DNA from: Chloroflexota bacterium
Lineage (GTDB): Bacteria; Chloroflexota; Anaerolineae; Anaerolineales; Anaerolineaceae
Assembly: GCA_021779955.1 (NCBI GenBank)
Contig: JAJXZS010000033.1
Coordinates: 1-64,000 of the forward strand
Length of the DNA: 64,000 nt
Direction of reading: 5' to 3'
In this document: one piece after another, positions 10,723-23,590 of the stretch
Layout of the letters: each line of letters begins with the position of its first letter
Numbering within the stretch: position 1 is the first letter of the stretch
The notes under the pieces: model-generated
The model's database searches: none
What the model saw: only the letters and a program-made list of their open reading frames with translations
Told to the model about the DNA's origin: nothing
Translations under genes and position numbers: made by a program

Positions 10723-13700
10723 ATGGGAGTTGGACATTCGGAAAAATCCATTGATTGGCACAACTTACTCAATCTTAGCGAAGAACTGCTTGCTCAACCA
10801 GATGCAGAGTCCATCGCAGAAGAGTTTTCCAGGCGCGTCAGCAGCACCCTGAGCTGTTCGGCCGATGTCTACCTGGCGGAACCTTCATATCCATTACCCG
10901 ATGATCAAGAACTGAAAACAATCCCGACCTTTCCTGCGCCACAAGCAGTCATCAATGCGCTTATGCAAAGGAAAGAGGTGTCTTCGAAATCCACAGTCTC
11001 TGGTGAATCACAAATTAAATCACAGGGGTACGAACTGGCTATTCCTTGTATCCTCCAGGGTGTCACACTGGCGGTTCTCCACGTAACGCGTGAAAGCGAG
11101 TTTTCATCTGAAGAGACCAGCGTACTCCATCCCATGGCCTCCCAAGCAGCGATGGCGCTGCAGGTAAACCGGCAGGTGACTCTGAAAAATTGGCGCTTTG
11201 ACCAGATCTCGCTCGTCCGGTCGGTGAGCTCTCAAATCGCAAATATCACCGACCTGGACGATCTTTGCAGGCGAGTGACCACCCTGATCCAATGCTCGTT
11301 CAACTTCTATTTCGTATCCATTTTTACGCTAGATCCGGGTTCAGACAGGCTGATCTTCAGGGCATCTGCGAAAGAGTGCAGCTACGACGTCTTCCCCAAT
11401 TCATTTGCAGTAGGCCTGGACGAAGGCATCATTGGACATGTAGCCGCCACCGGCGAAGAACATATCACCCGTGACGTTTCGCAGGATCCATTCTTCCGCT
11501 GTATTGATGGATTACCCGACACCAAGTCTGAAGCTGTGATTCCCCTGATGGTAGAGAACAGGGTTTTGGGGGTACTTGATCTTCAGAGCGACAAGTACTT
11601 TCGTTTTCACGACAACGATATGCTCGTTCTGCGCTCGCTCGCCGATAGTATCGCCCTGGCAGTCGAGAGCACCCGCTTGTTCAACAGCCTCGAAAGGCAC
11701 GCGGAACAGCTTTCGGCAGTGCTCGAGATCAACTATGCCCTCTCTTCGATCCTGGACCTGGACGAATTGCTCCAACAGGTGGTGATACTGCTTCAGAAGC
11801 GCTTTGGCTACCCATTCATTCACATCTTCACCGTCCATCCTGGGCGGAGAAAAATCATCTACCAGGCGGGGACAGCTAGGCAATCATCTTCATTGAAAAA
11901 ACGATCATACGCCTTCGATTTGGATTCCAAGAAGGGTATGATTCCATACGTGGCACGGTCGGGTAAATCCTTGCTGGCAAATGACGTGAGCAAGGAGCCG
12001 CTCTACCAGCCGTCCAAGATGCCCCCGCACAACACCCAATCCGAATTGGACATCCCTCTCAACTTTGGCAACGATATCCTTGGGGTCCTGGATATCCAAT
12101 CTGACAACCTCAACGCTTTCGACCAGAGAGATGTCGACCTTTTTGAAGGGTTTGCCTCTGGGATTGCGCTGGCAATGCGCAACGCAAGTCTCTTTCGCAC
12201 AGAACAATGGCGGCGCAGAGTGGCAGATAGTTTCCAGGACATCGCCAGCCTGCTTTCGACCAACCTCGAGTTGAGCAAGCTGCTCGATACGATATTGACC
12301 GAGCTGGAGAAGAATCTCCCATGTGATGCATCGGCCATCTGGCTGCGGGATGAGCGCGAGGACATCGATTCTGAGCAAAGGCCGCTGACGCTTGCAGCAG
12401 TGCATGGAACGAACCGGCAAAAAATCACAGAAACACGTGAAGAGTCTATGGCTGTCCGCGATTGGCTCGATCGAGCTCTCGACTCGAGCGGGCCCATCAT
12501 CCGCAGTCCCAAAGATCCATACGGTCCGCTGGGAGCGGCCTGCGGTTACAGGCAGAATTACTCATCCATAGCTGCGCCGCTCAAAGCTGGAGATAGAATT
12601 TTGGGCTTGCTCACATTAGCTCATCACAATGAAGGCCGGTATGGATCTGAGACGATGGCGATCACTTCGACCTTTGCAAGCTACGCTGCGGTCGCCATTC
12701 AGAACACGAAAATCATCGCCTCAGCCCAGGAGGATGCATGGTCGTCGACTGTGCTGCTTCAGGTAGCCGAAGCGACCCAGGCGATCGATGATAAGGAAGA
12801 ACTCCTCGCAACGATGACCCGCCTGACGCCTCTGCTGATCGGGATCAACCAGTGTGCATTCTTCTTGCGCGATGAAGAAACCGAAAGCTACGTGATCAAG
12901 TCCTGGTACGGATTTCACCCTGCGGAAGGTGAAACTCACTTCAAGGAAGAAGATGCGGTTGCATTTCTGCGGCTGGGTGCGACACAAAACCCAATCTTTA
13001 TCCAGGATGCCAGGAGCGAGCTAGGGCTTTCAACCCTGGAGACCTCGATCGACCATGGCACTATCGTCCTCCTTCCGCTGGTTGCACACGGCGAGCTGCA
13101 GGGTGCATTTCTGGTGACACATTTGAGTTCGAGCGAGTTGGGCATCGATAATCCATTCAATGATCAGACGCTGGCGATCATTCAAGGCATTGCTCAACAA
13201 ACTTCCGTTGCCCTGGAAAATATCAACCTTCTCGAGAAGCGACAGGAAGAAGCCTACATCACAGCGGTGCTGCTGCAAGTCGCTCAGGCTGTGGTCAGTC
13301 AAAACGAACTGGAAGATATTTTGGACACCATCGTCCACCTGGTGCCAATCCTGGTCGGGGTGGATACCTGCGCCTTCTACATGCTGGACAAGGCCGCGCA
13401 ACGGTATCATCCGACTAAGGTTGTGTCCAATACACATGCCCTGGAAAATGCCATCATGGCGCGGGATTTTAGCGCGGGCGAATTCACCCTGATCGATTCG
13501 ATCGTCAATACAGATTCGCCGGTCGCCTGCGCACTTGACGACCCCGAATTGCCATTCGAGGAATGGCCCAAGATTGCGGGTTGCAGCACCCTGGAAGAAC
13601 TGGATGTGACCAGGCCAAGTGGTCAAAATCACTGGATTCTTGGTTTTCCCCTTTCGATCAAAGGCGAGATCTACGGCTTTATGATCTCGCGTGAAGTGGA

Positions 13701-14544
13701 TGTTCCAAGGGAATTTCAATCCAAACGCGTCGAACTGCTCAACGGAGTAGCCCAGCAGGTAGCGCTGGCCATCCAGAACGACCGGTTCAAAAAGGAAATG
13801 GTCGATCGCGAAAGGATCGATCGTGAAATCCAACTGGCAAGGCAGATCCAGGAGACTTTCCTGCCCACCGTAGTTCCCCAGCCCAAAGGCTGGGATGTCG
13901 CCGTCAGGTGGCGGACCGCGCAGGAAGTAGGCGGCGATTTCTATGATATCTTCCTGACCCGAAACAGGAATCTGGGCTTGTCGATCGCAGATGTTGCCGA
14001 TAAAGGCATGCCTGCAGCCCTCTACATGACCGTAACCCGCACGCTCATCCGTTCAACCTCGCAGGCGATAAGATCACCCGCGAAGGTACTTGAACGGGTG
14101 AATGAATTGCTCTTCATGGATTCGCAGAACGGAATGTTCGTTACTGCAATCTTTGCCATCCTGGACCCTGAAAAGGGCGTCCTAAAATATGCAAATGCCG
14201 GGCATAACCTGCCATTGTTGCTGCGTGCTCATACAAAAGAGATTGAGGTGCTGCCAAAGGGGGGAATCGCTCTCGGCGTGATAGAAAACGCAATCTATGA
14301 GGAACATGAAATACGACTTGATGCAGGCGACAGCCTGCTGCTCTATACAGACGGGGTGACCGAGGCTTTTTCATCCTCTGGAGAGTTGTTCTCAACAACA
14401 CGGTTGAGGTCTGCGATGCTATCCATGGCCGGGCAGACAGCCAACAAAATGCTCGACCAGATCGATCGATCGATCGACGAATTCAGGAAAGGCAGCCTGC
14501 CATCAGATGATTTAACGATGGTTGCGCTGCGCCACAAAAAATGA
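10723..14544 (+). CDS. Six-GAF SpoIIE-type PP2C protein phosphatase
   Basis: A very large (1273-residue) soluble sensor phosphatase. About six consecutive GAF-type domains occupy residues 20-1030, with recurring starts such as DLDDLCRRVTTLIQ, DLDELLQQVVILLQ, ELSKLLDTILTELE, KEELLATMTRLTPL and ELEDILDTIVHLVP. A PP2C/SpoIIE domain follows at about 1045-1270 and keeps its metal-binding residues (GGDFYDIF, ADVADKGMPAAL, LLYTDGVTEA, DDLTMVAL), so it should be active. By family analogy it dephosphorylates the STAS protein encoded two genes upstream. The GAF array probably senses small molecules or redox state; ligands cannot be read from the sequence. A terminator overlaps the stop. Confidence 0.92.
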   Translation: MGVGHSEKSIDWHNLLNLSEELLAQPDAESIAEEFSRRVSSTLSCSADVYLAEPSYPLPDDQELKTIPTFPAPQAVINALMQRKEVSSKSTVSGESQIKSQGYELAIPCILQGVTLAVLHVTRESEFSSEETSVLHPMASQAAMALQVNRQVTLKNWRFDQISLVRSVSSQIANITDLDDLCRRVTTLIQCSFNFYFVSIFTLDPGSDRLIFRASAKECSYDVFPNSFAVGLDEGIIGHVAATGEEHITRDVSQDPFFRCIDGLPDTKSEAVIPLMVENRVLGVLDLQSDKYFRFHDNDMLVLRSLADSIALAVESTRLFNSLERHAEQLSAVLEINYALSSILDLDELLQQVVILLQKRFGYPFIHIFTVHPGRRKIIYQAGTARQSSSLKKRSYAFDLDSKKGMIPYVARSGKSLLANDVSKEPLYQPSKMPPHNTQSELDIPLNFGNDILGVLDIQSDNLNAFDQRDVDLFEGFASGIALAMRNASLFRTEQWRRRVADSFQDIASLLSTNLELSKLLDTILTELEKNLPCDASAIWLRDEREDIDSEQRPLTLAAVHGTNRQKITETREESMAVRDWLDRALDSSGPIIRSPKDPYGPLGAACGYRQNYSSIAAPLKAGDRILGLLTLAHHNEGRYGSETMAITSTFASYAAVAIQNTKIIASAQEDAWSSTVLLQVAEATQAIDDKEELLATMTRLTPLLIGINQCAFFLRDEETESYVIKSWYGFHPAEGETHFKEEDAVAFLRLGATQNPIFIQDARSELGLSTLETSIDHGTIVLLPLVAHGELQGAFLVTHLSSSELGIDNPFNDQTLAIIQGIAQQTSVALENINLLEKRQEEAYITAVLLQVAQAVVSQNELEDILDTIVHLVPILVGVDTCAFYMLDKAAQRYHPTKVVSNTHALENAIMARDFSAGEFTLIDSIVNTDSPVACALDDPELPFEEWPKIAGCSTLEELDVTRPSGQNHWILGFPLSIKGEIYGFMISREVDVPREFQSKRVELLNGVAQQVALAIQNDRFKKEMVDRERIDREIQLARQIQETFLPTVVPQPKGWDVAVRWRTAQEVGGDFYDIFLTRNRNLGLSIADVADKGMPAALYMTVTRTLIRSTSQAIRSPAKVLERVNELLFMDSQNGMFVTAIFAILDPEKGVLKYANAGHNLPLLLRAHTKEIEVLPKGGIALGVIENAIYEEHEIRLDAGDSLLLYTDGVTEAFSSSGELFSTTRLRSAMLSMAGQTANKMLDQIDRSIDEFRKGSLPSDDLTMVALRHKK

Positions 14545-14571
14545 ACGATCCCCACTTGGGGATCGTTATTT
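14537..14571. terminator. Bidirectional terminator
   Basis: A 10-bp stem AACGATCCCC/GGGGATCGTT (14544-14553 and 14558-14567) with loop ACTT. It has a T-rich run on the plus side and a longer T run after the stem on the minus strand. It serves the phosphatase gene and the convergent FtsB-like gene, and overlaps both gene ends. Confidence 0.85.
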
Positions 14572-14961
14572 GTTGAGGATCAGTGCCATCCAGATATCCC
14601 AATTGCTGACGGGTTGCGGCGTGGGTGTAGGTTCGAAGACCGGCGCCGGGGTCGAGCCGGGTGGCGCAACCGGGATGATGACGTTATCCCCTGGGCGTGA
14701 CATGTGCCCCTCTTCGTAAGCCCACTGCTCCACAGCCGAAACAGACGTCGAATAGTACATTTGGGTTTCCAGATTATTCAAAGTTGACTGAAGAACGGCA
14801 ACTTGCGTTGCAGAGTGACCTCGCTGCTCGCTCAAGCGGTTCAACTCGTTCAGCCGGCTGTTGAGATCCATCACCAGGAAGAAGAGTACCACGCCGATGC
14901 CGACCAATAAGATCTTTCGGTAATCGAACTTTCTTGGGGCGCGGTGCGGTTGATCTTCCAT
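14566..14961 (-). CDS. FtsB/DivIC-like septum formation initiator family protein
   Basis: A 131-residue bitopic protein: basic N-terminus, one transmembrane helix (about 18-35), and a coiled coil (about 36-72, with SRLNELNRLSEQRG). A conserved-looking region with AVEQWAYEEGHMSRPGD follows, like the post-coil segment of FtsB/DivIC, then a Pro/Thr tail. Such proteins link the division complex. The gene is not in a division cluster here. A full promoter (TTGTCT, 17 bases, TAAGAT) places the predicted transcript start at the A of the ATG, so the mRNA would be leaderless. Confidence 0.75.
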   Translation of the reverse strand: MEDQPHRAPRKFDYRKILLVGIGVVLFFLVMDLNSRLNELNRLSEQRGHSATQVAVLQSTLNNLETQMYYSTSVSAVEQWAYEEGHMSRPGDNVIIPVAPPGSTPAPVFEPTPTPQPVSNWDIWMALILNK

Positions 14962-14967
14962 AAAACT

Positions 14968-14996
14968 ATCTTACACCCAATAGAATTTGCAGACAA
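14968..14996 (-). promoter_or_regulatory. Promoter of the FtsB-like gene, predicted leaderless
   Basis: On the minus strand, TTGTCT (14991-14996), a 17-base spacer and TAAGAT (14968-14973) are followed by AGTTTT and then the ATG. There is no room for a ribosome binding site. Confidence 0.6.
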
Positions 14997-15002
14997 GCAA
15001 GA

Positions 15003-15029
15003 GAAATAAAATCCCCGTAGTACGGGGAT
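15003..15029 (-). terminator. Terminator of tRNA-Leu
   Basis: On the minus strand the hairpin ATCCCCG/CGGGGAT with loop TACTA (15011-15029) is followed by TTTTATTT. It begins five bases after the tRNA 3' end. Confidence 0.85.
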
Positions 15030-15033
15030 CCAG

Positions 15034-15117
15034 TGCCGAAGGAGGGATTTGAACCCTCATGGAAGTACATCCACTACGCCCTGAACGTAGCGCGTCTGCC
15101 AATTCCGCCACTTCGGC
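15034..15117 (-). tRNA. tRNA-Leu (anticodon CAG)
   Basis: Class II tRNA with a 7-bp acceptor stem GCCGAAG/CTTCGGC. The anticodon arm is CTACG-TTCAGGG-CGTAG, giving anticodon CAG. It has a long variable arm and a T arm with GGTTCAAATCC. CCA is not encoded. It has its own promoter and terminator. Confidence 0.95.
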
Positions 15118-15128
15118 TGCAAGTTCCA

Positions 15129-15156
15129 ATTCTATCAGAATTCATTAGATTGTCAA
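15129..15156 (-). promoter_or_regulatory. Promoter of tRNA-Leu
   Basis: On the minus strand, TTGACA (15151-15156), a 16-base spacer and TAGAAT (15129-15134) end 11 bases before the tRNA 5' end. Confidence 0.7.
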
Positions 15157-15222
15157 TCTTTGACCGTTAAATCGTATTTGATACTGGTCATGCAGCTGAC
15201 CTCATATTCAGATCTTTACGTT

Positions 15223-15251
15223 TTGTCAAATTGCGTTTCCTATGCCATAAT
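15223..15251 (+). promoter_or_regulatory. Promoter upstream of the histidine kinase-like gene
   Basis: TTGTCA (15223-15228), a 17-base spacer ending in TGC, and CATAAT (15246-15251). The leader to the ATG at 15410 would be about 150 bases long, and no clear structure was seen in it. Confidence 0.5.
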
Positions 15252-15409
15252 CATTTTTATAGTCGATCAAAGCTCCGCTTCGAATGGTGTAGAACTTGCA
15301 TCGTAGAGGTAGCCTGGTTCGACTTCATGGGTGGTCTATGCATCGACCGCAACACTGATTGATCCCGAAAAATCATCGAAAACCTTCGAGCAGGCACAAA
15401 GAGCAAACT

Positions 15410-16282
15410 ATGATCTCTCCCAAACTCAACTCAAACGAACAACGCAGCATCAGCGAGCTGAATCATCTCGAAGCAGAATTACGCACGACCCTCGAGCAAA
15501 ATGCCAGGCTGCAAAACGCTCTGGCTGACGCCAATATGCGTATTCTGGCGATGCAAAACATGCAGCAACCTTCGGCCGGGATCACCGGCGCGGAAGTCTA
15601 CCGGACCTTGATCAGCGAGCTGGATCAACCGTTGACCACAATCAACGGTTTCTGCGATATTTTGCTTCTCGAATCGGTTGGGATTCTTGGGTCACTTCAG
15701 CGCAAGTTCATCGAGCGGATCCAGCATTCGGCTCAAAGTATGCATATCATGATTAACGACCTCTCGCGCTATGCTGGTCGCGAGATCTCGCATGGACAGG
15801 TCTCTTCAGATTTGATCAACCTTACAGATGTCATCAATTCCACGCTTAATACCCTTTCAGGTTCGTTTCTTGAAAAACAGATCACTCTTGCCTTCGATAT
15901 GGATGATACAATCCCTTCGTTCGTGGCTGACCGGCAGGATATCGAACAAGTCATTCAACTCATCCTCCTCAATGCTGCAAAAGCGGCTCCCGAAGAAGGC
16001 TTCGTGCAGTTGACAGTAAAATCGGACCTCGATATCCGGAACAAATCGATCAGCATGAACGTCTTTAATAGCGGAACCGGGATCAAGGAAATCGATATCA
16101 CGCGTATTTTCTCGACGATGGTTCCTGATACTGAAAACCATGTCAATGGCCTGGGAATCAGCCAAAAGGAATTCAGTATTTTGAAGATGCTCGTCGAGGA
16201 ATTGGATAGTTCGCTCAACGTGATCTCAGATCCGAACGAAGGAACATCTTTTATCCTCAAAATACCACTGCGACAGGCTTAG
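15410..16282 (+). CDS. Degenerate histidine kinase-like protein (no phospho-acceptor histidine)
   Basis: The 290-residue soluble protein has an N-terminal coiled coil (about 12-50), a HisKA-like dimerisation region and an HATPase-like domain. In the H box the usual SHELRTPLT aligns with ISELDQPLT, so the phospho-accepting His is Ser. The N box is kept (LILLNAAKAA), but the G1 box DxGxGI reads NSGTGI, losing the ATP-contacting Asp; a GLGIS G2 box remains. It is therefore likely a pseudokinase or a binding protein. No response regulator is adjacent. The ATG at 15410 is preferred; an in-frame TTG at 15359 is possible. Neither has a strong ribosome binding site. Confidence 0.8.
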   Translation: MISPKLNSNEQRSISELNHLEAELRTTLEQNARLQNALADANMRILAMQNMQQPSAGITGAEVYRTLISELDQPLTTINGFCDILLLESVGILGSLQRKFIERIQHSAQSMHIMINDLSRYAGREISHGQVSSDLINLTDVINSTLNTLSGSFLEKQITLAFDMDDTIPSFVADRQDIEQVIQLILLNAAKAAPEEGFVQLTVKSDLDIRNKSISMNVFNSGTGIKEIDITRIFSTMVPDTENHVNGLGISQKEFSILKMLVEELDSSLNVISDPNEGTSFILKIPLRQA

Positions 16283-16313
16283 TCGTAAGCAGCGCTGAAA
16301 GTGAAGTGAAAAC

Positions 16314-17357
16314 ATGCGGAAAATCGTCATCTTCTCGTTCGTTTTATTATTGGTACTTACTGGATGTAACCTTCCATTGAGCATCTTCTCGGCAAATCAG
16401 ACCCCGTTACCGATTTCAGACCTGTCGAATTCAGAAACTTCGAATGGAGCTCCCACTCCGACGCCGTTTCAACCCCTGGCGCCAACACCCGGAGCTGGCG
16501 AAGACTCGCTAATCAATATCCCACCCACCAGCCCCACAGACATTGGACCTACTCCATTCGCCGGGGCAGACCTCGGTTTCGAGCTTTCCAAGAGCATGAT
16601 CACCATTTTGCTCCTTGGATCAGATCAGCGCGCAGATGCCAGTTACCGCACCGACGTGATCATGCTGCTCGCGGTAGACCCCGACAAAGGAACTGTGACG
16701 CTCACATCGTTCCCGCGCGACCTGTACGTGTCGATTCCTGGAATCGGAATGGAGAGGATAAACACGTCCCAGGAATTTGGCGGCTTCGCTCTGACTCAGG
16801 CGACCTTCCAGTATAATTTTGGCTTCACTCCAGATTATTACATTTTGACCAACTTCTCGGGTTTCGCTGCAATTGTGGATACCCTGGGGGGTATCGATGT
16901 GAATGCAGCCTATACACTTACCGATATCTGCAGCCTTCCGCAAGCAGTCGACAAAATGTGCACTATTAATGCCGGCATGAATCATATGGATGGCGCGACT
17001 GCCTTGTGGTATTCACGTGCGCGCAAATCGACCAGCGACTTCGATCGCACGCGTCGCGCTCAAGAAGTCATTACAGCCATCTTCCAAAAATCGATAAGCC
17101 TTAACGCACTCAACCGGGCACCTGAGCTTTACCAATTATTCAAAAGCTCGGTCGAGACCGATGTACCGCTATCTACAATCGTGAGCTTGATGCCTCTCGC
17201 CGGAAAAGTCGCATCCGACACTTCGATCGTAAAGCGTTATGCCATTGGCGCCAATGATGTCACCAGCTATATCGTACCCGCGAACAACGCGCAGGTGCTG
17301 CTGCCCAATTATGACGCGGTAATGGCAATCATACGCAAAGCTTTCGGCGGCAATTGA
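16314..17357 (+). CDS. LytR-CpsA-Psr (LCP) family lipoprotein
   Basis: The 347-residue protein has an N-terminal signal with lipobox VLTGC, a Pro/Thr linker to about residue 85, and an LCP domain. LCP enzymes transfer undecaprenyl-linked glycopolymers to peptidoglycan outside the membrane. Signatures are ILLLGSDQRADASYRTDV, TSFPRDLYVSIPG, TLGGIDVN and the arginine-rich WYSRARKSTSDFDRTRRAQE, which holds the pyrophosphate-binding arginines. The lipoprotein anchor is unusual because most LCP proteins are anchored by a transmembrane helix. It starts 31 bases after the kinase-like gene and may share its transcript. Confidence 0.9.
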   Translation: MRKIVIFSFVLLLVLTGCNLPLSIFSANQTPLPISDLSNSETSNGAPTPTPFQPLAPTPGAGEDSLINIPPTSPTDIGPTPFAGADLGFELSKSMITILLLGSDQRADASYRTDVIMLLAVDPDKGTVTLTSFPRDLYVSIPGIGMERINTSQEFGGFALTQATFQYNFGFTPDYYILTNFSGFAAIVDTLGGIDVNAAYTLTDICSLPQAVDKMCTINAGMNHMDGATALWYSRARKSTSDFDRTRRAQEVITAIFQKSISLNALNRAPELYQLFKSSVETDVPLSTIVSLMPLAGKVASDTSIVKRYAIGANDVTSYIVPANNAQVLLPNYDAVMAIIRKAFGGN

Positions 17358-17382
17358 CATTCGATTTGAAAAGCTGTACACT
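17354..17382 (+). promoter_or_regulatory. Promoter of the recombinase-like gene
   Basis: TTGACA (17354-17359) overlaps the stop codon of the LCP gene. A 17-base spacer leads to TACACT (17377-17382). The ATG follows 50 bases later. Confidence 0.65.
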
Positions 17383-17425
17383 GTCCTGTAGTTAGACTAT
17401 ACGAAAGACAATCTATTTACAGGAC
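17383..17425. promoter_or_regulatory. Inverted repeat between promoter and start codon
   Basis: Perfect 8-bp arms GTCCTGTA (17383-17390) and TACAGGAC (17418-17425) are separated by 27 bases. The left arm starts directly after the -10 box and the right arm ends six bases before the ATG. It could be an operator or an mRNA hairpin masking the start region. Confidence 0.5.
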
Positions 17426-17431
17426 AATAGG

Positions 17432-18334
17432 ATGAGCGAATCTCCCGAAATTCATATTGCGAGCACCACCCCTTTGCAGCCCGCCATTAAATCCTGGGAA
17501 GTGTTCCTTGCCGATCAGGGTAGATCTCCGTATACGATCAAAGCCTTCCTGGGAGACATGAGCCTGTTTGCAGGATTCTTCTCTCCTGAAATCGGTGTGG
17601 GGGCAATCACCACTCAAGAAATCAACCGCTTCCTCAACTGGCTGCAAAAAGAACGCAATATCCCGTGCAGTCCAAAGAGCCTTGCCCGGAGAATCACCTC
17701 GATCAAGGCGTTTTTCCGCTGGCTTGCGCAAAGCGGCCGCATCCCCGCCGATCCTGCCGAAAAGGTCGTCCAGCAATCGGTGATCAGTCCGCTTCCCGAG
17801 GTGCTCACAGATAAGGAACGCGACAAGCTCATTCAGGCTGCGCTTCTGAAACGCAATGGCCAAAAACCCGATGCTCGCCCTTACACTCTCTTGATGCTGC
17901 TCCTTACGACAGGGATAAAAAAGGGTGAATGCCTGGCGCTCAACCTCAACCACATCGACCTTGAGAATCCTTCCGGTAAAGTGTTGTTTATCCGCTACGC
18001 CAACAGCGGCAACCGCTATAAGGAACGCAAGATCGAACTCAGTGACGATTGGGTCGATGCTTACCAGGAATACTTGCAGCAATACAAACCTGCCGACCAG
18101 GTTTTCCCCTGGTCTCCACGCAGGCTGGAGTATTTGCTTGAGGATCTCGGCAAGGAATCAGGATTGATCAAGCATCTCTCATTCGATATGTGCCGCTGGA
18201 CCTGTGTGCTGAACGATTGGAAATCAGGTGAAGATCGAGAAAAGATTCGTCAAAAGCTGGGGATTTCCAAAATCCAATGGCGTGAGGTTGGATTGAAGCT
18301 CAGGCAATTGGCGGGTGAAGTACCTGTAAAGTGA
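17432..18334 (+). CDS. Tyrosine recombinase-like protein lacking the catalytic residues
   Basis: The 300-residue protein has the layout of XerC/D-type recombinases: an N-terminal SAM-like core-binding domain (about 15-110, with GRSPYTIKAFLGDM and ITSIKAFFRWLAQSGRI) and a C-terminal catalytic-fold domain. The catalytic set is largely missing. The first Arg (TGLRISE) aligns with TGIKKGE, so it is Lys. The HxxR box aligns with DMCR, so His is Asp. The GH box is GI, and no tyrosine occurs in the last 80 residues. It may bind DNA without cutting it. The reading frame is intact and has its own promoter, so it is not a plain pseudogene. Confidence 0.8.
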   Translation: MSESPEIHIASTTPLQPAIKSWEVFLADQGRSPYTIKAFLGDMSLFAGFFSPEIGVGAITTQEINRFLNWLQKERNIPCSPKSLARRITSIKAFFRWLAQSGRIPADPAEKVVQQSVISPLPEVLTDKERDKLIQAALLKRNGQKPDARPYTLLMLLLTTGIKKGECLALNLNHIDLENPSGKVLFIRYANSGNRYKERKIELSDDWVDAYQEYLQQYKPADQVFPWSPRRLEYLLEDLGKESGLIKHLSFDMCRWTCVLNDWKSGEDREKIRQKLGISKIQWREVGLKLRQLAGEVPVK

Positions 18335-18352
18335 ATTAATTTTGACGCCAAG

Positions 18353-18389
18353 AATAACCGGCCTGGACTTCAGCCGGTTATTTATTTTT
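18353..18389. terminator. Bidirectional terminator
   Basis: A 10-bp stem AATAACCGGC/GCCGGTTATT (18353-18362 and 18373-18382) followed by TATTTTT. It lies between the convergent recombinase-like gene and tilS and overlaps the tilS stop. Confidence 0.85.
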
Positions 18390-19799
18390 CTGGGTTAATT
18401 CCATTCTCAGCACTCTACGTGTTTCCTGCGTGACCTTGCAGAACTCTGCCGGCCGGTAGCCTGGCACCCAGACGATTTTGCTCTGGCTGCGGACAAGCGG
18501 CCAGGCATCTCTTGCACGCGTTGGAAGATGTTCATTCGTAAAGAAATCTCCAATTTTGATCGATTTGCCATGCATGCCGAATGGCATAAACACGTCCCCC
18601 GGAGCGCGTGTTGCCAATTGGAGGGGCTGCACCACCTTATCTTCATCCAACAGACATACCCATGGATCGGGAGTGGCTGTATCGTACCGAGAAGATTCAA
18701 GCCGCTGTAGCGTTAGCTTCCATCCACCCTGCAATTCGCGGCTTCCAGGAGCCAGATCTCCCATATCAGCGGTAATCACTTGCGGCCAGAGATCGAAAAG
18801 CGGTCCGACTCTGGCGGTAACCAATACGCTTCGGCCGTCATATTTGAGAACCTCGATCTCGTCCGTTGCCTGGCAAGTCTTGTTGAAATCAGGATGCAGC
18901 ATGTACTGTGCCGCCCTTTCGACTTCAGCAAAGGATACGTCGCGAAGCGTAGACTTCAACTTAAAAATGATTTTCCTGACGAGTCTGCGTAAAAACCACA
19001 AGGCCTTATCTTGAAATTCAGTGGTATCGACCAGCATCCAACCATCGCCACTACGCAATTGAATTTGCCCCACCAATACGTCGACTTCAGCATCGAGTTG
19101 CGAGTCCTCTTCTGCCAGGATTGATGCAGTCTGCCAGAGATGACGTTTGAATTCAGCATTATAGGTCTCGAGCTGAGGGATCAGCTCGCTGCGAATTCGA
19201 TTTCGGAAGTATGCGGGATCGGCATTGGTGACATCTTCGAGAGGAGTCAGGTGATGAAATTGGCAGTATTCCTTGATTTCTGATCGCCAAACCGCGAGGA
19301 GAGGACGAATAAGCGGAATCGCAGACTCGCCGAGAGGGTCCCTGGCTCGATATCGCATGCCGGCGAGGCCGCTGCTTCCTGCACCGCGTAATAGATGCAT
19401 CAATACCGTCTCCACCTGGTCGTCAGCATGATGGGCTACGGCTACGGCATCGGCGCGATAGGCTCTTGCCATCTCGAACAGGAAGCGATAGCGCAAGATC
19501 CGCGCCGCCTCCTCAATTGAGAGCTTGCGTTCCGAGGCGAATTCCCGTACTTTTCCTACTTCCTGCACGAATGCTACTTCCCAATCCTCAGCGATCGCTC
19601 TGCATCGGGCGGCATCTTCAGCCGACTCAGACCGCAAATTGTGATCGAAATGCGCCGCAATGACCTCGACGGGCTGGCTCTTGAGCAAGTGCAGCAGGCA
19701 AAGGCTGTCCGCTCCACCCGAGAAACCGATGAGAACGCGCTGCCCGGGATCGACGCGGCATCGATCAAACAAAAATTCAGAAATCTGGGGCTCAAGCAT
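18378..19799 (-). CDS. tilS: tRNA(Ile)-lysidine synthetase
   Basis: The 473-residue enzyme attaches lysine to C34 of tRNA-Ile(CAU), using ATP, so that the tRNA reads AUA. The N-terminal PP-loop motif SGGADS lies in VLIGFSGGADSLCLLHLL. The AHFDHNLRSESAEDA, HHADDQVET and FRNRIRSELIP segments are typical of the N-terminal domain, and the C-terminal substrate-binding domain is present. TATAAT lies exactly six bases before the ATG with TGC in front (extended -10). The predicted transcript therefore starts at the start codon and is leaderless. Confidence 0.95.
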   Translation of the reverse strand: MLEPQISEFLFDRCRVDPGQRVLIGFSGGADSLCLLHLLKSQPVEVIAAHFDHNLRSESAEDAARCRAIAEDWEVAFVQEVGKVREFASERKLSIEEAARILRYRFLFEMARAYRADAVAVAHHADDQVETVLMHLLRGAGSSGLAGMRYRARDPLGESAIPLIRPLLAVWRSEIKEYCQFHHLTPLEDVTNADPAYFRNRIRSELIPQLETYNAEFKRHLWQTASILAEEDSQLDAEVDVLVGQIQLRSGDGWMLVDTTEFQDKALWFLRRLVRKIIFKLKSTLRDVSFAEVERAAQYMLHPDFNKTCQATDEIEVLKYDGRSVLVTARVGPLFDLWPQVITADMGDLAPGSRELQGGWKLTLQRLESSRYDTATPDPWVCLLDEDKVVQPLQLATRAPGDVFMPFGMHGKSIKIGDFFTNEHLPTRARDAWPLVRSQSKIVWVPGYRPAEFCKVTQETRRVLRMELTQKNK

Positions 19800-19805
19800 G
19801 TGTGA

Positions 19806-19811
19806 ATTATA
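19806..19811 (-). promoter_or_regulatory. Extended -10 of tilS, predicted leaderless
   Basis: On the minus strand TGC-TATAAT-TCACAC-ATG places the expected +1 at the A of the start codon. No good -35 and no ribosome binding site are present. Confidence 0.55.
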
Positions 19812-19831
19812 GCATCCGGAAGTATGTTTGC

Positions 19832-19860
19832 TTGTCTGTACACTTTATTTATGCTAGACT
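19832..19860 (+). promoter_or_regulatory. Promoter of the receiver/TadZ-like gene
   Basis: TTGTCT (19832-19837), a 17-base spacer ending in TGC, and TAGACT (19855-19860). It is divergent from the tilS promoter. Confidence 0.55.
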
Positions 19861-19877
19861 GGTAAAAACCTGAGAAC

Positions 19878-21041
19878 ATGGGGTGGACTATGCCAGATAA
19901 GATTCTGATCGTAGACGACGATCTGGAAACACTACGTCTCGTCGGGTTAATGCTACAACGGCAGGGCTATGACATCGTTGTTGCCAACAGCGGAAAGCAG
20001 GCCCTCGAATTTGCCAGGAATGAAAGCCCCGATCTGATCGTCCTCGACATCATGATGCCGGGGATGGACGGATTCCAGGTAAGCACCTTGCTGCGCAGCG
20101 ATCCTGCGCTCACCGGAATCCCGATTCTGATGTTCACTGCAAAGAGCCAGGTCGACGACAAGGTTGCAGGCTACGATGCCGGCGCTGATGATTATCTGAC
20201 CAAGCCGGTACATCCGGCTGAACTGGTTGCACACATCAAGGCTCTTTTGACTCGCAACCGCAATCGCCCGGCCCCTCTGCCTGTAGTCCAGCGCGGCTAT
20301 TCGGTAGGTATCATTGGAGCCAAGGGGGGTCTGGGTATTTCGACGCTTACCCTGAACCTGGCAGCCAGTTATGCGCAAAAGAACAAATCGGAAGTGATCG
20401 CCGCCGAAATCCGGGCAGGCCAGGGTACCTGGGGACTGGAACTTGGCTTCGCACCTTCGAATGCAATTGAAACACTCCTGCGCATGAACCCGTCAGATAT
20501 CACTCCTGCAGAAGTGGAAAAGCATCTGGTGGGAACCGCTTTCGGCGTGCGGCTGTTGTTAGCAAGCCAGAATTCCCTGGGTTTGGATTTCGCCGGGTTT
20601 ACCGAAAAGATTATTGCCTTGATCAATTGCGTGACCCTTTTGAGCCCGATGAGCTTCATCGATCTCGGCACACCTTTCCTTCCACGATATGAGAAGATCT
20701 GCAGTGTTTGCAGCGAACTCATCGTCGTCACCGATGCTATTCCTGCCACGGTAAACCGGACGAGGGTTTTGCTCGCCGAGTTGCGTTCAATGAGTTCGGC
20801 ATCGGGCAAGATGATCAATATCGTTCTGATCAACCGTGCCCGCAACGATATGCAATTGAACTCTATCCAGGTTTCGGATCTCTTGAACGGTGAAGCCATC
20901 AGCATGATGATTCCCCCCGTTCCTGAACAAACTTTCCAGTCTATACAAAAACAGGCGCCCCTGGTCAAAGTTCATGCTGACGGCCTGGCTGCCCAGCAAA
21001 TTATCCAACTTGCGGATGTGATCAAGGCTCACGCCACATAA
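19878..21041 (+). CDS. Receiver domain fused to a TadZ/CpaE-like ParA-family ATPase
   Basis: In this 387-residue protein, residues 5-125 form a CheY-like receiver with the acidic pocket (ILIVDDD), the phospho-acceptor Asp (VLDIMMPGMDG) and the conserved Lys (YLTKPVHPAE). Residues 140-385 resemble MinD/ParA ATPases, but the deviant Walker A KGGxGK[ST] reads KGGLGIST, with the nucleotide-contacting Lys replaced by Ile. TadZ/CpaE proteins, which place pilus machinery at the pole, share this domain order and often an atypical ATPase site. No tad pilus gene is nearby. Start codon 19878 or 19890; the latter follows GGGGTGG, but very closely. Confidence 0.82.
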   Translation: MGWTMPDKILIVDDDLETLRLVGLMLQRQGYDIVVANSGKQALEFARNESPDLIVLDIMMPGMDGFQVSTLLRSDPALTGIPILMFTAKSQVDDKVAGYDAGADDYLTKPVHPAELVAHIKALLTRNRNRPAPLPVVQRGYSVGIIGAKGGLGISTLTLNLAASYAQKNKSEVIAAEIRAGQGTWGLELGFAPSNAIETLLRMNPSDITPAEVEKHLVGTAFGVRLLLASQNSLGLDFAGFTEKIIALINCVTLLSPMSFIDLGTPFLPRYEKICSVCSELIVVTDAIPATVNRTRVLLAELRSMSSASGKMINIVLINRARNDMQLNSIQVSDLLNGEAISMMIPPVPEQTFQSIQKQAPLVKVHADGLAAQQIIQLADVIKAHAT

Positions 21042-21116
21042 GCGGAATTGATCTGCCGGTTTGACCTTTAGTCAGCAGTGGCTTTGTCACTATAGATGTG
21101 TTTGAGTTTGAGAGAG

Positions 21117-22859
21117 TTATAACGACCTGGATCCCCGCCGGCCGAATTGCCTTTCCAGCAGGTCAACGGATAGGTGGATCATCGTCGGACGGCCATGCGG
21201 GCAGGTTCGCGGAGAAGTGCAGTTCTCCAGGTCGTGAAGAAGCGCTTTTTGCTCTTCAACACTGAGAGTCTGTCCACCCTTGACGGCCATACGTTTGCAG
21301 ACCCTGGCGATGATTTTCTCTTCCAATTTGTTCTTGAGTGGAGTCTCATCCTCTTCGAAGTCTTCAACCACCGAGCGGACGATATCTGCGGGATCGCCGC
21401 GGTCGAACAATGCCGGGATGGAGCTCAGTCGAAAAGTGTTTGCGCCAAATTCTGTCAGGTCGATCCCATACTCGTTCAATGCATGCAAACTGGTTTCCAG
21501 CAGTCGGGCGGCATCCGGGGTAAGCGTAACCATCACCGGCTGAAGCAATTGCTGAGTGGCGATCTTTCCTCTCTCTGAGGTCAATCGTTCGAAGAGCACC
21601 CGCTCATGGGCCGCGTGCTGATCGATGAGGTACAGTCCGTCCGGTCCTTCTGCCACTATGTAAGTTGCACCAATCTGACCCACCAGCCGCAGCAAGGGGA
21701 TTTCGCCGCCCAGGCGCTGGGCGGCCGCGCTCTCAGCTGCCCGCCCATCTTCATCGAGAACAGCATCGGAAATTGACGTATCGAAAAGCAATCCATCGGA
21801 GCGTGTTGGCACTCCTGCATCCTGAAACGGAAGCGCAGTCTTCCAGATCGTGGGTGAAAACTGCGGAACCGGGGAAAAAGCGAGTAGTGCCCGACGAATT
21901 GCCCGCTGCATCCTGGTAAAGACCTGGTCCGGCTCGCGGAAGCGCACTTCTGCCTTGGCTGGGTGAACGTTGACATCCACTTCCTCGGCAGGTAGCTGGA
22001 TGAATATCGCAGCGGTAGGGTACCGACCGACCATCAAGTAAGTCTGGTAAGCCTTGAGCAAGGCCGTCGTGAGGGCGATATCCTGCACCCAGCGACCATT
22101 GACAAAGAATGTGATCTCGCGCCGGTTGGACCGGGTCAGGCTGATCGGGCTGATGAATCCCTTGATTTCAGTCTGGCTCTCGATAAAGTCCACCTCGAGA
22201 AGCTGCCTGGCAAAATCGACACCGTAGATTTGGGCTGCAACCTCGCGCTGGTTGCCCGAGCCCATGGTCAAGAATTCTTCGGATCCTTCCATAATCAGGC
22301 GAAAACTTATCGAAGGATACGCCAGGGCGTAGCGTGTAACGAACGCGGTGATCTGCTGCCTTTCGGTGAGATCTTTCTTGAGGAATTTCAATCTCGCAGG
22401 GGTATTAAAAAACAGATCTTCGACCTGGATCGCCGTTCCTGCAGGTATGCCCACATGCTCTTCGACCAGGGTCTTGCCGCCGTCCACGCGGATGCGTGAA
22501 CCGATCTCGAGTTCTCTTGAACGCGATGAAACAGTCATGTGCGAAACGGAGCCGATCGAAGCGAGGGCTTCTCCACGAAAGCCAAGCGTGCGAATGTGGA
22601 AGAGGTCTTCAGCCGATCTCAGTTTACTCGTGGCGTGCCTGGCGACGGCTAGCGCCAGGTCTTCGGGTTGGATGCCGCTGCCATCATCAGCGACTTCGAT
22701 CATACGCCGGCCCGCTCCATCGACTCGAATGGCGATGCGTGTTGCACCGGCATCGATTGCGTTTTCGACAAGCTCTTTCACCACAGAAGCCGGGCGTTCC
22801 ACGACCTCGCCTGCCGCGATCTGAGATGCGACTTCATCGGCCAACAGTTTGATTTTCAC
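21117..22859 (-). CDS. mutL: DNA mismatch repair protein MutL
   Basis: The 580-residue protein has an N-terminal GHKL ATPase (KELVENAIDAGATRI, DDGSGI, TLGFRGEALASIG) and a C-terminal dimerisation domain. The latter keeps the endonuclease motif DQHAAHERVLFE and the companion motifs CKRMAVKGG and CPHGRPT. It should therefore be a nicking-type MutL, as in bacteria without MutH. The start is a GTG at 22859. TATAAT lies seven bases before it, and no ribosome binding site fits in between, so the message is predicted leaderless. No mutS is present in the window. Confidence 0.96.
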   Translation of the reverse strand: MKIKLLADEVASQIAAGEVVERPASVVKELVENAIDAGATRIAIRVDGAGRRMIEVADDGSGIQPEDLALAVARHATSKLRSAEDLFHIRTLGFRGEALASIGSVSHMTVSSRSRELEIGSRIRVDGGKTLVEEHVGIPAGTAIQVEDLFFNTPARLKFLKKDLTERQQITAFVTRYALAYPSISFRLIMEGSEEFLTMGSGNQREVAAQIYGVDFARQLLEVDFIESQTEIKGFISPISLTRSNRREITFFVNGRWVQDIALTTALLKAYQTYLMVGRYPTAAIFIQLPAEEVDVNVHPAKAEVRFREPDQVFTRMQRAIRRALLAFSPVPQFSPTIWKTALPFQDAGVPTRSDGLLFDTSISDAVLDEDGRAAESAAAQRLGGEIPLLRLVGQIGATYIVAEGPDGLYLIDQHAAHERVLFERLTSERGKIATQQLLQPVMVTLTPDAARLLETSLHALNEYGIDLTEFGANTFRLSSIPALFDRGDPADIVRSVVEDFEEDETPLKNKLEEKIIARVCKRMAVKGGQTLSVEEQKALLHDLENCTSPRTCPHGRPTMIHLSVDLLERQFGRRGSRSL

Positions 22860-22866
22860 GGGCTTA

Positions 22867-22872
22867 ATTATA
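22867..22872 (-). promoter_or_regulatory. -10 box of mutL, predicted leaderless
   Basis: On the minus strand TATAAT-TAAGCCC-GTG. The expected transcript start falls within one base of the start codon. A clear -35 is lacking. Confidence 0.5.
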
Positions 22873-22924
22873 GCTTATTCAAGTTTTTCAGCTTTCAGGG
22901 GGCGTTCAGGCAAATGAATCAGGG

Positions 22925-22930
22925 TATACT
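22925..22930 (+). promoter_or_regulatory. -10 box of the HAD phosphatase gene, predicted leaderless
   Basis: TATACT-TCAGCC-ATG on the plus strand. The spacing equals that seen at tilS and udk. There is no ribosome binding site and the -35 is weak. Confidence 0.45.
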
Positions 22931-22936
22931 TCAGCC

Positions 22937-23590
22937 ATGCCGTTCGAAGCCATGCTTTTCGATCTTGATGACACACTGTACCCCCCCACCTCAGGGGTTT
23001 GGGAGGCCATTGGTGTTCGGATTGACCGCTATATCTACGAAAAAGTTCACATTCCAAGTGACGAAGTTGTAGCCTTGCGCAAAGAACTATTCCACAAGTA
23101 TGGAACGACCATGCGCGGGCTGGTCCAGCTTTACGGTGTCGATGCAGAAGATTATCTCGAGTACGTCCATGATATCGATCTGAACCGGTATCTTCAGCCC
23201 AATGAAGCGTTACGCAATACGCTCATGGGCTATTCTCAGAGAAAAATCGTCTTCACCAATGCCAGCCTGAAACACGCGACGCGGGTCGTTGCGCGGCTTG
23301 GGCTTGAAGGAGTATTCGACAGGATCGTGGATATTCAATCCATCGTCCCTTACTGCAAGCCTCAAAAGGCTGCTTTTCAGAAAGCGTTCGAAGTCGCGCA
23401 AATTCGTGTTCCTGAAGAGTGTGTGATGCTTGACGATTCGCTGTTGAACTTGAAAACTGCGCAGGAATTGGGGATGTTCGCAATTCAAGTGGGTTCTGAG
23501 GATCGGGTTGCTGGCGCCGATGCAGCGGTGATGACGTTGATCGATCTGCCGAGCGTGATCCCGCTAAACGGAGCCAGGGGGAGGACATAG
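22937..23590 (+). CDS. HAD-superfamily phosphatase, pyrimidine 5'-nucleotidase type
   Basis: A 217-residue HAD hydrolase. Motif I with the nucleophile is LFDLDDTLYPP, motif II is IVFTNAS, the motif III lysine lies in YCKPQKAAFQ, and motif IV is VMLDDSLLNL. The DLDDTLY form and the helical cap with the repeated tyrosine-rich region match pyrimidine 5'-nucleotidases (SDT1/PHM8-like), which dephosphorylate UMP or CMP. The substrate is inferred from family resemblance only. The next gene begins two bases after the stop. Confidence 0.85.
   Translation: MPFEAMLFDLDDTLYPPTSGVWEAIGVRIDRYIYEKVHIPSDEVVALRKELFHKYGTTMRGLVQLYGVDAEDYLEYVHDIDLNRYLQPNEALRNTLMGYSQRKIVFTNASLKHATRVVARLGLEGVFDRIVDIQSIVPYCKPQKAAFQKAFEVAQIRVPEECVMLDDSLLNLKTAQELGMFAIQVGSEDRVAGADAAVMTLIDLPSVIPLNGARGRT

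Follow-up and report, generated by a model that had tools for sequence, protein, structure and literature searches.

What does a protein with the fold of a tyrosine recombinase do when the residues that cut DNA are missing? The question is raised by an open reading frame in a 64,000-nucleotide stretch (hereafter the window) of contig JAJXZS010000033.1, assembly GCA_021779955.1, from a Chloroflexota bacterium of the family Anaerolineaceae. The initial annotation described the product as a catalytically empty recombinase with its own promoter, and proposed a retained non-cutting DNA-binding role, for example in chromosome organisation or as a repressor.

Recombinase fold and active site

The two-domain fold of tyrosine recombinases, a SAM-like core-binding domain followed by a recombinase domain, is present in the window protein (Table 1). 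Pfam detects both parts that had been recognised by eye, Phage_int_SAM_1 with an E value of 1.3e-10 and Phage_integrase with 1.8e-10, and the frame is full length, as had been stated. The active site R..K..H..R..H/W..Y is absent from the protein. In an alignment with intact Xer and integrase proteins of the same and related genomes, K163 stands at the position of Arg-I, D252 at His-II, I278 at His/Trp-III, and G287, just past the end of the Pfam Phage_integrase match, at the Tyr nucleophile. The initial annotation was right that the nucleophile and most of the Arg/His set are gone, but it left unmentioned that E166, the beta-hairpin Lys K197 and the Arg-II residue R255 are kept.

Table 1. Features of the recombinase-fold locus, in window coordinates
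Feature	Positions	Strand	Basis and remarks
LytR-CpsA-Psr (LCP) protein, syntenic upstream neighbour	16314..17357	+	Pfam; named loci
Sigma-70-like promoter TTGACA-17-TACACT	17354..17382	+	-35 overlaps stop codon of upstream LCP gene
Operator candidate WARNCTATRCGMAA	17393..17406	+	core CTATACGAA at 17397-17405; begins 14 nt past -10
Non-catalytic tyrosine-recombinase-fold CDS	17432..18334	+	300 aa, ATG start; ORF, Pfam, alignment, AF2 model
N-terminal SAM-like core-binding domain, residues 20-100	17489..17731	+	Pfam PF02899; AF2 helices
C-terminal recombinase 'catalytic' domain, residues 124-280	17801..18271	+	Pfam and alignment
TilS, syntenic convergent neighbour	18378..19799	-	Pfam; named loci

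Can the protein be classed with the known Xer recombinases? Its score of 94.8 bits against the TIGR02225 XerD model lies far under the cut-off of 329.6, a strict threshold that is reached in none of the 61 genomes compared and in four of 14 control genomes; against the XerC equivalog it scores 85.4 bits, with a cut-off of 335.15. The closest solved relative by sequence, archaeal XerA (PDB 5hxy), is found with an E value of 7.4e-11 from the single sequence and 5.6e-16 from a profile. The two-domain architecture is therefore shared with XerC, XerD, XerA and XerH, but the active site is absent, the XerD cut-off is missed, and a single half-site-like motif is found at the gene. The streptococcal XerD-like protein is a further conserved Xer homologue that is said to take no part in difSL recombination; it comes from a different phylum from the window family. 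As a separate observation, residues 8-197 of chain 14 in PDB entry 9i5v (401 aa, named RaiA) match the recombinase query, a similarity which suggests either that an Xer-like and a ribosome-hibernation protein are fused in this chain or that the chain is misnamed.

Structure prediction agrees with the domain assignment. The AF2 model (pLDDT 89.9, pTM 0.67, 57 alignment rows) has the Xer fold and matches XerA, lambda integrase, XerH and Cre in a structure search; in a second structural alignment DNA-bound XerH comes first (Z 19.6, rmsd 4.1 over 280 residues). Two phage repressors are matched as well: SroF (Z 14.4, rmsd 7.2, 252 aligned residues) and MrpR, or YopR (Z 12.5-13.3, rmsd ~18 over 248-249 residues).

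MrpR is described as the master repressor of the Bacillus subtilis prophage SPbeta, a protein that has lost its recombinase function, has kept three of seven catalytic residues and recognises a 15-bp element that is repeated at its targets (PMC10516654). Its domains are reported to be turned in the DNA-free crystal (PMC10516654), in keeping with the large rmsd. Both proteins have a tyrosine-recombinase fold without recombination, and three of the seven catalytic residues are retained in each. MrpR differs in that it is prophage-encoded, has kept Tyr and Lys, and acts at several targets. By contrast, the window family is chromosomal, is found widely within one phylum, has kept Arg-II but not the Tyr, and has one recognised site. 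The match found is one of structure: a profile search at E values up to 1 lists XerA, XerD and XerH, not MrpR. SroF of phage phi3T (PDB 9rd5, 9rgl) likewise has the same fold and is a repressor according to the entry title, but it is phage-encoded and, by the same title, associated with an antirepressor; no description under that name was found in the open-licence PMC literature searched. Because of these structural matches and the example of MrpR, the window protein may be of a kind already known as repressors, and the authors of the MrpR work have suggested that tyrosine recombinases recruited as transcription factors are probably more widespread than thought (PMC10516654).

Spread and age of the non-catalytic family

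Has catalysis been lost in this gene alone or in a whole family? A protein search of the window genome and 60 relatives gave a match in 60 of the 61 genomes, some of them fragments or ordinary Xer proteins. Genes above ~200 bits, 55 in number and from 55 of the 61 genomes, were extracted, and a profile, A1, was built from 51 rows. This profile matches 273 of the 298 class Anaerolineae genomes at E <= 1e-20, where 249 matches are strong; the other 24 are weak (7e-21 to 1.4e-30) and possibly just ordinary Xer proteins. Across a phylum-wide draw, 153 of 400 genomes are matched, a count that includes class members and a tail of weak matches. Forty wider loci, hand-picked from the listed matches and mostly strong ones, were fetched and aligned; two of them (L233 and L234) encode intact Xer proteins and were included as such.

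The resulting 150 distinct family sequences comprise 112 from the order, 17 from the rest of the class and 21 from other Chloroflexota classes. None has R..H..R..H/W, a pattern present in 19 of 20 other tyrosine recombinases of the same genomes that served as a control. Arg-I is kept in three of the 112 order members, and none of the 150 has His at either histidine position; in one member, from another class, His-II is replaced by Lys. A Tyr occurs in the stretch that surrounds the usual nucleophile position in two of the 112 order members, one of the 17 class members and 20 of the 21 sequences from other classes. In L212-L224 and L226-L231, all from other classes, the C-terminal Tyr lies ~3 residues past the usual position (KYRRLA or RYIKLA), mostly accompanied by LRD instead of LRH. 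A quick tree, midpoint-rooted and without bootstrap, separates 61 non-catalytic from 18 intact rows by a single branch (SH-aLRT 99); L054, which is partial, and L073 were omitted from its intact rows, yet are counted among the 20 control recombinases.

The gene is also under selection. All nine pairs compared show purifying selection, with dN of 0.019-0.123 and dS from 0.475 to saturation, and between the window and locus L115 the dN of 0.118 for this gene is below that of LCP (0.247) and of TilS (0.409). The neighbourhood is largely constant among the named Anaerolineales loci, the best 80 of 419: of the 73 with room, 59 have LCP no more than 2.5 kb upstream, and 62 have TilS, convergent, no more than 1.5 kb downstream. 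Bellilinea, a genus among these loci, belongs to the class Anaerolineae of the phylum Chloroflexota. Phage and plasmid collections yielded only matches below 60% identity (23-28% in the 16 matches listed). The setting is thus not that of prophage-encoded lysogeny control, with LCP and TilS on the flanks and no phage-record match of at least 60% identity, and the conserved neighbours together with the low identity of the phage and plasmid matches rule out a mobile element.

The wider gene order at window positions 10723-23590 reads GAF/SpoIIE-like phosphatase, histidine kinase, LCP, recombinase-fold gene, TilS, response regulator, MutL and hydrolase, where the kinase, LCP and TilS were named by Pfam and the others by eye. 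It is much alike in many Anaerolineaceae.

The initial annotation had argued for a retained non-cutting gene and had noted that intact orthologues in sister species would mark a recently dead copy. The orthologues collected bear out the former: the catalytic set is lost in every family member examined, with Arg-I surviving in the three order members mentioned, the sequences are under purifying selection, and the locus is mostly syntenic. On this comparative evidence the loss of catalysis is almost certainly an old, selected state, and the family is apparently an ancient Xer-type protein that has been vertically inherited.

A motif at the gene's own promoter and the intact Xer system

How is such a gene controlled? 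The claim that it has its own promoter gains nothing from a consensus scan, which by itself is uninformative (one found, 1.4 expected in shuffles), but it is supported by the recognition of a -35/-10 pair in 94 of 105 distinct motif-bearing upstream regions. The motif in question, CTA[TC][AG]CG[AC]A, was noticed between the promoter and the start codon when the upstream regions were read. It is asymmetric, and its information reaches WARNCTATRCGMAA, or ~14 bp; this motif, in the -10/transcription-start zone, is the new element of this analysis.

The motif lies at most 130 nt from the start in 43 of the 55 relatives, with a mean of 0.3 and a maximum of two of 55 in dinucleotide shuffles. Since the first count used the same 55 sequences that had served to define the pattern, a check outside that set carries weight: the motif is found in all 57 further named Anaerolineales loci. 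Altogether it is present in 80 of the 80 named loci (the best 80 of 419), 23 of which are the same sequences as among the 55. Elsewhere in the class it occurs in five of 17 loci. It is absent from 12 of the 55 relatives, from 12 of the 17 class-level loci and from all 21 non-catalytic loci of other classes. In 152 distinct upstream regions the motif is found forward in 105 and reverse in none. Where a promoter is recognised, it begins either 2 nt inside the -10, thus overlapping it (29 of 94 regions), or 7-18 nt past it (65 of 94); nine upstream regions carry two direct copies. Associations between the motif and residues of the protein reach p ~1e-6 (uncorrected) at the top and are inseparable from ancestry.

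Does the same motif mark other genes? The combined promoter and motif pattern occurs at 41 places in 40 of the 61 genomes; 40 of these 41 places lie upstream of this gene, and the reversed pattern gives seven. In the window's own genome the bare core is close to background (98 vs 82), and the search for a wider regulon found the 12-letter form at 30 places in six genomes vs 33 for the reversed control. Five of these 30 places are upstream of this gene, and 20 of the other 25 run into an open frame of 80 or more codons (in three cases just a short one). Because 40 of 41 promoter-linked sites are at the gene and the 12-letter form is not in excess, the motif is tied to one promoter and, where it accompanies a promoter, is nearly exclusive to this gene.

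One possible exception lies around position 1500 on the minus strand of L235 and L240, where GGCTATGCGAAA is found at the possible start codon ATGGCTATGCGAAA of similar reading frames. These are homologous places in two genomes of the same genus, TATAAT adjoins in L235 only, and the site is possibly a second target or a coding coincidence. Elsewhere, two contigs of one genome, G003 (L258 and L263), have the same sequence with GCCTATGCGAAAaattaataggc at the contig start, outside frames of at least 80 codons, in what looks like the end of a repeated or mobile element. In the window itself, the operator candidate is flanked, between promoter and start codon, by a perfect 9-bp inverted repeat, TGTCCTGTA/TACAGGACA, at positions 17382-17390 and 17418-17426. 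It was rejected as a conserved element because L002, the nearest relative, has no counterpart. A dif-type site built from the gene's own motif, sought as the exact inverted pair TTTCGYATA-N3..25-TATRCGAAA, is found in none of the 61 genomes, and at six places for the control.

If the window protein does not resolve chromosome dimers, which protein does? Loci of intact Xer-type recombinases were chosen from XerD-model matches in 20 genomes, and such a recombinase is encoded at all 20. At 14 of the 20 a dif-like 28-mer is present in the printed upstream stretch, in most cases ~30-50 nt before the start codon. In the window's own genome, where the recombinase lies on contig C38, the site reads GGTTTCGATAA-N6-TTATCATAAGC (L265, G000:C38:37557-37580). 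With one mismatch at most, the dif-like pattern occurs in 34 of the 61 genomes, at 60 places (eight sites on both strands) vs 18 for the control; dif of the proteobacterial type, with up to two mismatches, is no commoner than its reversed control. The recombinase and its 28-mer form a candidate single-Xer/dif module of Anaerolineae that is reminiscent of XerS/difSL and XerH/difH, systems for which the site is described as near the gene (PMC5357621).

The presence of this intact Xer with a dif-like site makes it unlikely that the window gene is the genome's own dimer resolvase, and dimer resolution is better assigned to the separate recombinase. Six arms were compared with the operator candidate, uncorrected for their number. 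It agrees with the E. coli XerC arm at eight of 10 bases (0.16% of random arms) and with the XerD arm at seven of 10 (1.0%), but with each arm of the own-genome dif-like site at five of 10, no better than chance (14-15%). This last result weakens a link between operator and dif, which is suggestive at best. The proposed role in chromosome organisation finds no support here: the only clear promoter-linked site is the gene's own, and an intact recombinase with a dif-like site is present.

A probable non-cutting DNA binder and its alternatives

A DNA-binding role for the window protein is very likely, and binding to the promoter motif likely; autorepression is proposed with moderate confidence. 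On balance, the best explanation would be a non-cutting, Xer-derived DNA binder that acts on a single recombinase-type half-site to repress its own promoter, in the manner of MrpR but encoded on the chromosome. The strand-cutting chemistry would have been lost and the two-domain clamp that grips DNA kept. A monomer, or side-by-side monomers where the motif is doubled, would clamp the single half-site WARNCTATRCGMAA, which overlaps the -10 or falls in the first ~20 transcribed bases, and so block RNA polymerase, allowing the protein to hold its own level steady. Because it is tied to one promoter, the motif can be read as an autoregulatory operator, and its geometry, a single oriented half-site, would fit the clamp of a tyrosine recombinase more readily than it would a dimeric helix-turn-helix protein. 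The earlier suggestion of a repressor has gained support from the conserved operator-like motif in the gene's own promoter.

For a regulator it is odd that the searches turned up no second clear target among promoters. The protein is presumed to have one or more additional DNA targets or partners, most likely a few degenerate half-sites at which the protein might act as a repressor or in an architectural role. The operator also looks younger than the loss of catalysis: since loci of other classes, and some within the class, lack the motif, autoregulation was probably added later to the role that the family had first.

Could something other than this protein read the motif? Another regulator or an RNA-level mechanism might do so, leaving the protein with an unrelated function, an alternative considered unlikely. 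In the 65 regions where the motif begins past the -10, it lies mostly in the transcribed leader, in some regions close to the likely ribosome-binding site, and its fixed orientation would suit an RNA element. In single-sequence folding its unpaired fraction is also slightly higher than when the flanks are shuffled (0.65 vs 0.59). However, the overlap with the -10 in 29 regions means that the whole motif cannot act in RNA, and a separate regulator that targets this gene in 40 genomes is less economical than the gene's own product. A second and rather improbable alternative makes the protein a permanently inactive partner or accessory subunit of Xer recombination, working with the intact Xer at the dif-like site. 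The coexistence of that recombinase and its upstream 28-mer in the same genomes, and the resemblance of the operator to the E. coli arms, speak for such a partnership; the chance-level agreement with the own-genome arms speaks against it, as does genome G036, where the search gave no good family match and yet the intact Xer gene has a dif-like site next to it.

The retained residues E166, K197 and R255 of the window protein, along with the Tyr near the usual place in nearly all other-class members, might instead point to a recombinase that is still active but has an unusual active site, in which, for instance, Lys replaces Arg-I and the Tyr comes in trans or from a shifted position. This is very unlikely, given that 110 of the 112 order members and 16 of the 17 class members have no Tyr in the stretch and that His is found at neither position in any of the 150, one member having Lys at His-II. 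The loss of catalytic residues would also be expected of a recent pseudogene or a dying mobile integrase, an idea that can be given almost no credence. Relatives above 200 bits in 55 of the 61 genomes, the low dN and the family-wide loss of the active site rule out recent decay, and the LCP and TilS neighbours in most loci and the distant phage and plasmid matches argue equally against a dying mobile integrase.

What would a self-repressing, non-cutting Xer protein mean for these bacteria? No paper on a non-catalytic Xer of Chloroflexota was found among the open-licence PMC papers listed in the searches. If the preferred explanation is true, the family would be a chromosomal, phylum-deep case of a recombinase turned regulator, with an operator ready for testing. 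It would also follow that in Chloroflexota the active site should be checked before matches to Phage_integrase and the XerC/D models are counted as mobility genes or dimer resolvases. More speculatively, and with low confidence, Chloroflexota may have converted one Xer, early in the phylum, into a permanent non-cutting genome binder that in Anaerolineae sets its own level through one Xer-type half-site and works together with the intact Xer, or in opposition to it, at dif or another part of the terminus. If such a pairing were true, chromosome segregation in these organisms would depend on a working and a non-working Xer together.
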